In this document: piece after piece, positions 1 through 60,810 of the stretch
Position numbering within the stretch: position 1 is the stretch's first letter
Layout of the letters: each line of letters starts with the position of its first letter
NCBI RefSeq assembly: GCF_900103085.1
Contig: NZ_FMWR01000018.1
Coordinates: 1-60,810, forward strand
Origin: Gilliamella mensalis
Lineage (GTDB): Bacteria; Pseudomonadota; Gammaproteobacteria; Enterobacterales; Orbaceae
Length of the DNA stretch: 60,810 nt
Direction of reading: 5' to 3'
Notes under the pieces: model-generated
The model's input: the letters and a program-made list of their open reading frames with translations, nothing else
Databases searched by the model: none
What the model was told of the DNA's origin: nothing
Translations under genes and position numbers: made by a program

Positions 1-10
1 TGTTTTCCAT
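1..10 (-). CDS. Start of an unknown gene leaving the left edge (partial)
   Basis: Only the first three codons (Met-Glu-Asn) are inside the window, so the protein cannot be identified. The call rests on comparison with the right edge: reverse-complemented bases 1-21 are identical to 60376-60396, which hold the Shine-Dalgarno AGGAG and the first codons of the gene starting at 60387. About 165 nt upstream are also similar. The two are probably paralogous genes in opposite orientation. Confidence 0.5.
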
Positions 11-165
11 ATTGTTCTCCTCAATTCCTTATAATTCATGCAGGCTATTTTTAGTTATGTTATTTGTGCATCGTTATGCATCTGATTATGGTGCTAAGCA
101 CAAACGATTATGCAAGCAGAGTATAAACTATTAGCATGAGAAATTTAATGGTTTTTTAGTTAATT
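1..165 (-). repeat. Left copy of a ~165-nt gene-start/upstream block, inverted with respect to 60230-60396
   Basis: Read on the minus strand this block aligns to 60230-60396 with about two net gaps. Identical segments are 21 nt over the ribosome binding site and start codon, 13 nt at 48-60 (right copy 60336-60348), and 17 nt at 117-133 (right copy 60262-60278). The 17-nt segment contains TATACT, a good -10 candidate. The stretches between are diverged but alignable. This looks like an old duplication that included the promoter and leader. Confidence 0.75.
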
Positions 166-362
166 TATTGGGTTGATATGAATAAGTTCTATTAGTTAAA
201 CCAGTAAGTAATAACTACTTAACGTCTTTGTTGAACAAGCGATTTAAGCAACCTGATGCGTTATCAATCAGATTTGTTAACTTATTAAATTTAATATAAT
301 TTAGCGCTGAAACGGTATAGATTCCTGAATGTTTTTAACAAAAATCACTCTATTTTTTAACC
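166..362. other. Intergenic stretch without a recognisable gene
   Basis: No open frame with family character is visible. The stretch separates the upstream region of the left-edge gene from the transposase remnant. It contains a TATAAT-like hexamer near 293-298, but nothing intact is positioned to use it. Confidence 0.4.
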
Positions 363-59266: not shown

Positions 59267-60169
59267 ATGAACAATTATTATCAACAAATCGCATTATTAG
59301 AATTAAAACTCAATAATGACTCCAATCAATGCTTACCTGCACAATTAGCAACCCAAGCATTAATTAAAGAAATTTGCCTATCACCTAAGCCCGGATTAGT
59401 TGACATGAATAACAGTGGTGCCCACCGCGACATGAATTTTCAAACCTTTGTCCACAGCATCAGCGCTATTAGCAACTGGTTTGAACGTTTTTATCAATAT
59501 GGCAAAGCATCCGCTTTACACGATAACAAACTATTTTTAGCAGGAATTAGACCGATTGGTATTGAGTGTGAACAAGCCATGTTCCAAGCCACCAACCAAG
59601 TCAACACCCATAAAGGCGGCATATTTGCTTTTGGATTGCTATTGGGTGCAATTGGACGATTAGAACAACTTGGCTTACCCACCCATGCACAAAGCATCTG
59701 TGACCTAGTTTCAGCCATTTGCCAAGGTATAGTTCAAAGAGAACTACAGCAAAATAACCAAACTAATTCAATAGGCGAAAAGCTATTTAAACGTCATCAC
59801 TTATCTGGCGCACGTGGCGAAGCAGAATCAGGTTATGCAACAGTTCGAAACATTTCACTTCCTATCTATCAAGAAATGCAAAACAGTGGCTATGATGAAG
59901 AAACTTGCTTATTACAGGCGATGTTATATTTACTTGCTTTTAATCAAGATACTAATTTGGTTTCACGAGGCGGCCTTGATGGCTTGGCTTTTGTGCAAGA
60001 ACAAGCCAAGAAACTGATTAAACAAGGTGGCGTTACACATCCCGATGGTCGGCACAATCTATATCAACTTGACACCGAATTAATAAAACGCAATTTAAGC
60101 CCCGGTGGTTCGGCCGATTTAATTGCGATTACTTGGTTTTTGTCTCAGTATAACAAATCAACTTTTTGA
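59267..60169 (+). CDS. citG: Triphosphoribosyl-dephospho-CoA synthase (CitG-like)
   Basis: The 300-residue protein belongs to the CitG/MdcB family, which makes the precursor of the prosthetic group of citrate lyase or malonate decarboxylase. Signature stretches are SPKPGLVDMNNSGAHRDMN near residue 43, NTHKGGIFAFGLLLGAIG near residue 111, GARGEAESGY near residue 182 and SRGGLDGL near residue 233. No citrate lyase or malonate decarboxylase gene is in the window, so which enzyme it serves cannot be decided. Confidence 0.88.
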   Translation: MNNYYQQIALLELKLNNDSNQCLPAQLATQALIKEICLSPKPGLVDMNNSGAHRDMNFQTFVHSISAISNWFERFYQYGKASALHDNKLFLAGIRPIGIECEQAMFQATNQVNTHKGGIFAFGLLLGAIGRLEQLGLPTHAQSICDLVSAICQGIVQRELQQNNQTNSIGEKLFKRHHLSGARGEAESGYATVRNISLPIYQEMQNSGYDEETCLLQAMLYLLAFNQDTNLVSRGGLDGLAFVQEQAKKLIKQGGVTHPDGRHNLYQLDTELIKRNLSPGGSADLIAITWFLSQYNKSTF

Positions 60170-60229
60170 AAAATTAATTACCAGGTCTTCACCATCAAAT
60201 TTTTATTCAATAATATATTGAACAATATA

Positions 60230-60396
60230 GATTAATTAAAAAATCATAAAATTTCTTCCGATAATAGTTTATACTCTGTTCAAATTATCACTTATACTTA
60301 AAACAATAATAATATGAATAACAAATGTGCAAATTACATAACTAAAAAGACCATGCACAGATTTTAGGGAAAATTAGGAGAACAATATGGAAAACA
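60230..60396 (+). repeat. Right copy of the ~165-nt gene-start/upstream block (inverted match to 1-165)
   Basis: It aligns along its length to the reverse complement of bases 1-165. The conserved islands are 60262-60278 (17 nt, with TATACT), 60336-60348 (13 nt) and 60376-60396 (21 nt over AGGAG, spacer, ATG and codons 2-3). The TATACT could be the -10 of a shared promoter about 115 nt before the start codon. Confidence 0.75.
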
Positions 60397-60810
60397 GGCT
60401 TAATGACCTAATCGGTCAATTAGGTGAAGCACACTATCAGGTGGTATTATCCTCACTAGCTAGGCTCGCACTGGATCATAACTATGCCATTTTTCGACAT
60501 CAAAGTGAGGTCAATATCAAATATTTTTGGTCAAAGCGCTCTATTTGTGTTTATATTGTCAATGACCTTAAACTATCGATATTGGCAAAACAGCTAATTA
60601 ATATTGGTAATAACATCGCTAAAATATTACATCAACCTTATTATCCTTTCTTTGAACCGTTTCACATGCAATTTTTGTACGAAGTTACTACCAACCAAGA
60701 CACCGCATGGCTAAAATCGCAATTTGCCCAAATTGAAAACTATTATTATCCGTCGATTTATGCTGGGAAATTTATCCGTTTCACCATCAATATTAACCTT
60801 GAAAGCCCAT
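60387..60810 (+). CDS. Unknown protein running off the right edge (partial)
   Basis: An open frame starts at ATG 60387 after a good AGGAG ribosome binding site and stays open for 141 codons to the window end. It begins MENRLNDLIGQLGEAHYQVV and has no signal peptide or membrane segment. The composition is that of a soluble mixed alpha/beta protein (LSSLARLALDHNYAIF, LAKQLINIGNNIAKIL, FHMQFLYEVTT). I do not recognise the family. Its start region and upstream sequence are duplicated in inverted orientation at the left window edge. Confidence 0.75.
   Translation, partial: MENRLNDLIGQLGEAHYQVVLSSLARLALDHNYAIFRHQSEVNIKYFWSKRSICVYIVNDLKLSILAKQLINIGNNIAKILHQPYYPFFEPFHMQFLYEVTTNQDTAWLKSQFAQIENYYYPSIYAGKFIRFTININLESP

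Follow-up and report, generated by a model that had tools for sequence, protein, structure and literature searches.

Satellite vgrG loci of the type VI secretion system (T6SS) have been surveyed in the Orbaceae (PMC8125069; mSystems 2021), where, in the parts of that study cited here, VgrG fragments are far commoner and the truncated copies of Gilliamella VgrG clusters 12 and 13 were ascribed to pseudogenisation. For these two clusters the survey names nonsense mutations and mobile elements, with degradation or illegitimate recombination invoked in more general terms, and it set aside 179 VgrG proteins that lay at contig ends. Vibrio cholerae carries a satellite composed of vgrG-2, vasW, vasX, and tsiV2 (PMC3857813, PMC8668125), and its orphan immunity arrays are attributed, in the portion of the article cited, to effector displacement (PMC5361080). 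Satellite vgrG loci and vgrG pseudogenes are already known in Gilliamella; frame-preserving fusions of the kind reported here are the one unusual feature. Among open-licence PMC papers, we found none on fusion or deletion relics of vgrG.

The window analysed here—60,810 nt of Gilliamella mensalis—is the whole of contig C41 (G000:C41:1-60810) from an assembly of 44 contigs and 2.28 Mb. An earlier note on this DNA had read both window edges as the start of the same unknown gene family in opposite orientation. The inverted block is real, whereas the edges are contig ends, and the two blocks lie 60 kb apart and opposed because the assembly broke there. We consider it highly probable that both edges are 5′ ends of a repeated satellite vgrG of the Gilliamella T6SS, the right one being the remnant of a decayed operon beside citG. 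What appeared to be an unknown gene family is a known, repeated weapon gene seen at the edges of an assembly contig. The edge features are:

1–168, minus strand: start of a satellite vgrG truncated at the contig end, with promoter/leader, ribosome-binding site and its first three codons (ATG at 10–8; the last 132 nt match contig C19 exactly)
59267–60169, plus strand: citG (triphosphoribosyl-dephospho-CoA synthase; Pfam PF01874, E 3.8e-83), left neighbour of the island
60227–60386, plus strand: second copy of the vgrG-type promoter and leader, 77% identical to the left-edge copy
60270–60275, plus strand: TATACT, candidate –10 hexamer (leader alignment)
60376–60380, plus strand: AGGAG ribosome-binding site, within a 21-nt identical island

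The reverse complement of 1–168 matches 60227–60396 in a single alignment of 124 bits and 77% identity, compared with at most 23.8 bits for 200 segments of 181 nt drawn at random from the window, plus strand only. The arms 73–168/60227–60322, 25–71/60325–60371, and 1–26/60371–60396 are among 23 listed inverted pairs, the first being the longest of these. All three exact islands noted previously are there: 21 nt (AGGAGAACAATATGGAAAACA, from 60376), 17 nt (TAATAGTTTATACTCTG, from 60262), and 13 nt (ACATAACTAAAAA, from 60336). The 16-mer AATAGTTTATACTCTG, picked from the block itself, occurs exactly twice, once per edge block, and none of 100 shuffles gave two matches with at most two mismatches. 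The candidate promoter hexamer TATACT is likewise present, one position downstream of where it had been placed (60270–60275 instead of 60269–60274), and is invariant in an alignment of the five leader copies of this genome with five of the nine from the relative G022 (C24, C35, and C2 being among those left out). A promoter scan returned three sites against 2.7 expected from shuffles, TATACT at 60270 not among them, and an Rfam search of 60150–60810 gave a single microRNA match, far under its gathering score.

Searching the genome with the block uncovered further copies besides those at the edges: at least five leader copies exist here—one at each end of C41, one where C19 starts, one where C42 ends, and one within C25 (best 40 of 51 candidates)—and at least nine of ≥124 nt, plus one of 53 nt, in G022 (best 22 of 51 candidates). 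This bears out the proposal of a multi-copy family with a common promoter and leader, and the shared promoter makes common control of the copies plausible. Inside C25 (L036:9154-9500), what follows the leader is a stretch of vgrG (residues 52–125), heavily decayed and containing a stop. A search of 35 genomes from the genus gave leader-length matches in this genome and in G022, with one of 83 nt in G018; among the matches scored, all others except the 53-nt one in G022 stayed below 45 nt. Mostly the best 22 of 40–84 candidates per genome were taken, so that these counts are lower bounds and do not imply absence elsewhere. By eye, the leader alignment reveals the promoter core in G018 and G034 too, whereas none is visible in G012, G001, G007, or the vgrG of C22, which is without this leader. 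Nor does a leader precede the left-edge neighbour gene (728–2170) in four relatives, within the fetched stretch. A T6SS is present in this genome, with VipB on C22, a contig that itself begins inside a vgrG.

The block comprises the start of vgrG, the T6SS spike gene, together with its ribosome-binding site, leader, and promoter. Its several copies per genome might also be expected of a general dispersed repeat—a mobile element end or an intergenic repeat—unconnected to gene starts, but vgrG begins at the block end, at VgrG residue 1, in eight of the nine leader-length G022 copies (the ninth leaves its contig), and the C25 copy here likewise precedes a vgrG piece, rendering such a repeat exceedingly improbable. 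The left edge displays only three codons; on C19, the frame extends into a VgrG N-terminus that shares 73% identity with residues 1–51 of a relative's VgrG, and from the 132 nt common to both contigs we infer that the left-edge frame is VgrG as well. The open stretch at 402–622 adjoining the left-edge leader, whose second frame contains KPHKAIFDKMPY, resembles what we take to be the end of an IS3-type integrase.

The 132-nt identity with C19 emerged from a comparison of contig ends. The near-identity of repeated vgrG 5′ regions probably explains the contig breaks, as demonstrated by this overlap for the left edge only. At the right end, neither a DNA search (best 40 of 51 candidates) nor a comparison of ten contig ends detected a long repeat shared with the rest of the assembly, a point against our overall reading. 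Loci matched by the right-edge protein were all from Gilliamella (6/6).

The undeleted counterpart of the right-edge operon is found in G034, where Pfam assigns the order vgrG, a ~309-aa gene (without family), a VasX_N effector, and DUF6708 genes; by eye, G018, G012, G001, and G007 have the identical order. The G034 vgrG (817 aa) belongs to Phage_GPD, Phage_base_V, T6SS_Vgr, and DUF2345 (PF05954, PF04717, PF13296, and PF10106), and the effector matches VasX_N (PF20249, E 3.7e-20) as well as NF041559 at 147.6 bits, slightly under the cut-off of 150. Lying behind vgrG and directly ahead of the VasX-type effector, the ~309-aa gene occupies the adaptor position. Three of its homologues gave no match to Pfam DUF4123 (PF13503) at E ≤ 5, and the gene was unlisted in a PF13503 search of 35 genomes; other vgrG copies are followed, at this position, by a different gene of ~317 aa that matches DUF4123 below cut-off (E 1.9e-4 and 0.0025). 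Comparison of the ~309-aa gene with DUF4123-type satellite adaptors by hhalign yielded a probability of 15–25% (E 0.0017 to 1.5e-4) for a single pair, and hmmsearch returned no match; the profile–profile link may be taken as suggestive only. AlphaFold modelled the adaptor-position protein with a mean pLDDT of 37.8 (4-sequence alignment). Behind another vgrG–adaptor–effector set, at L085 (C16):5446-9330, lie four consecutive genes of 316–319 aa with common first residues, an arrangement that resembles a tandem immunity array.

Compared with this operon, the right-hand frame of the window is a mosaic. It is open for 141 codons, from 60387 to the contig end, as had been noted, and it had been taken to belong to no recognisable family; DNA and protein Blast resolved it into a remnant in which vgrG is fused to the adjacent gene, vgrG being the family in question:

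60387–60809, plus strand: mosaic open frame P0001, a vgrG::adaptor relic of 141 codons cut by the contig end (Blast pieces)
60387–60425, plus strand: piece 1, VgrG residues 1–13 (MENRLNDLIGQLGE versus MENKLNHLMGQLGE of C19, E 0.005)
60411–60511, plus strand: piece 2, internal vgrG, VgrG residues ~127–158 (76% nucleotide identity to G034 vgrG)
60508–60784, plus strand: piece 3, central part of the adaptor-position gene, residues ~91–182 of 309 (85–87% nucleotide identity to G010, G034, G020, and G018)
60788–60810, plus strand: piece 4, 3′-terminal codons of that adaptor-position gene, in frame with piece 3 (22/23 nt)

The reading frame is kept across all three large joins and across a 3-nt deletion inside piece 2. 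Joins fall at short or imperfect homology: piece 2 overlaps piece 1 through such a stretch, and the parent sites of the last join are alike, by eye, over ~20 nt. VgrG accounts for only residues 1–13 and ~14–44 of the mosaic which, with no Pfam family at E ≤ 5, is not a VgrG; scans of the 141-aa frame against Pfam and NCBIfam together found no credible family. The lyase model TIGR03645 (E 0.042; 13.8 bits against a cut-off of 262) was dismissed as chance, being weakly matched by an intact adaptor too. Adaptor residues 21–72 were not found in this assembly at E ≤ 1e-6, while the same query found them in seven relatives.

Conceivably, the mosaic is a chimera of unrelated T6SS repeats stitched together by the assembler at a contig end. 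Its position, the fragmented assembly, the vgrG copies that end at contig edges, and the occurrence of the exact mosaic in 0/59 other genomes, where matches span either the vgrG or the adaptor part, all point in that direction. Yet the adaptor piece has no second copy in this assembly, a DNA search with the whole block gave only leader/start matches elsewhere (best 40 of 51 candidates), the joins bear short or imperfect homology rather than k-mer-sized repeats, and comparable fusions in G022 sit inside contigs. An assembly chimera is very unlikely in our judgement.

On the far likelier reading, in which the right edge is the relic of a decayed vgrG operon, the ancestor beside citG would have read vgrG, adaptor, VasX-type effector, DUF6708. 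Deletions between short or imperfect repeats would have taken out the bulk of both vgrG and the adaptor gene, possibly by recombination at these very repeats, leaving an in-frame mosaic beneath an intact promoter, leader, and start codon that would no longer encode a functional spike.

Independent fusions of the same two genes exist in G022. On its contigs C46 (L100:4167-4688) and C35 (L077), VgrG residues 1–125 are fused in frame to adaptor residues 21–72, giving 173 aa, and effector sequence follows; a third copy, on C2 of G022, is cut off by the contig end before the join. Of note, VgrG breakpoints lie near each other in the G022 fusions (~125), at the start of piece 2 of the window mosaic (~127), and at the end of the C25 relic match (125). 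The two fused frames differ by nine nonsynonymous and three synonymous codons and thus show no sign of protein-level constraint; this count weakens the case for protein-level selection on the fused frame.

For the window mosaic, dN/dS of the adaptor piece against eight intact homologues was 0.11–0.22, compared with 0.05–0.20 among the intact ones (one identical pair being without a value). The mosaic alters 4 of 55 residues that are invariant in seven distinct intact adaptors (G020 was dropped as identical to G034 in the segment), whereas each intact one, left out in turn, alters 0–3. With dN/dS this close to the intact range, any relaxation would be recent or weak; both measures fit this, and neither proves loss of function. 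If the joins are independent, plain decay would produce three large in-frame joins in about 1 of 27 cases, which is somewhat unlikely.

What once lay downstream may be preserved on another contig. We used citG as a synteny anchor and compared the fetched stretches downstream of it in 16 relatives. In 10 of the 16, one or more genes behind citG match genes of C27 (by eye, terminal residues), which there lie behind the 3′ part of an effector, three DUF6708 frames, and two effector tips. These shared genes presumably encode a glnH-like protein, an acetyltransferase-like protein, ABC components, a response regulator, and a kinase. At its citG site, G022 has citG, the leader, and a vgrG that changes frame near residue 242; the leader block is absent from the fetched citG stretch of the other 15 relatives. 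By synteny, C27 probably faces the right end of C41 across a gap, with the operon continuing there. The link is imperfect because a two-gene pair that directly follows citG in several relatives was seen neither on the C41 end nor in the first 12 kb of C27.

At L095 (C27):2-4018, the effector 3′ part is followed by three DUF6708 genes interleaved with two effector C-terminal tips (~77–82 aa), as in a displacement-type array. In this genome, the effector is represented by a part covering residues 995–1316 and the two tips, all on C27; its VasX_N part was not found in the genome. DUF6708 (PF20455) is matched above cut-off by the three C27 genes and by one on C23, and these would be putative immunity genes. 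Effector 3′ part, DUF6708 genes, and tips on C27 would all belong to the same island as the mosaic, across the gap.

Deletions that preserve the frame could serve to sustain expression of the immunity genes downstream. Selection might maintain the fused frame because its translation and promoter sustain the DUF6708 genes after loss of the weapon, turning a weapon operon into a shield. In keeping with this idea, all three large joins and the 3-nt deletion preserve the frame, the leader, ribosome-binding site, and start are intact, the three DUF6708 frames on C27 have retained 274–275 aa, the length seen in G034, and a vgrG::adaptor frame recurs at two G022 loci. The nine-to-three ratio of nonsynonymous to synonymous differences between those G022 copies argues against it, however, as does the fact that the G022 fusion precedes effector sequence and not immunity genes alone. 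Moreover, the C41–C27 gap is unsequenced, and tsiV2 of V. cholerae can, according to the relevant part of PMC3857813, be expressed from a promoter inside vasX, so that a translated front may be unnecessary. We deem such selection unlikely at this locus. The broader proposition—that Gilliamella satellite T6SS operons repeatedly turned from weapon to shield through frame-preserving vgrG-start::adaptor deletions, the spike being lost and the vgrG promoter and start driving a stub ahead of retained DUF6708 immunity genes—is unlikely; if the shield reading were true, it would connect the decay of genomes with the retention of defence in bee gut bacteria.

Read as the remnant of a decayed satellite operon, the right edge offers a concrete case of T6SS satellite decay through fusion deletions, not through stop codons or insertions. 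It shares with the satellite loci described earlier the genus, the presence of several vgrG copies outside the T6SS core, and truncated copies; section 10 of that survey describes, unlike here, neither vgrG fused in frame to the gene that follows nor a shared leader (PMC8125069). Like the vasW satellite of V. cholerae, as presented in the cited parts of PMC3857813 and PMC8668125, the undeleted Gilliamella operon has an accessory gene directly upstream of a VasX-type effector, a next gene in the immunity position, and vgrG in the cluster; it differs in that the ~309-aa gene is without a DUF4123 match and that a DUF6708 gene follows the effector. The closest parallel to C27 in the passages cited from PMC5361080 is the orphan immunity array of V. 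cholerae, with an effector 3′ end followed by DUF6708 genes and effector C-terminal tips between them on the Gilliamella side; here, in contrast to those arrays, the three DUF6708 genes are similar to one another, and the vgrG and adaptor gene at the front have been reduced as well.
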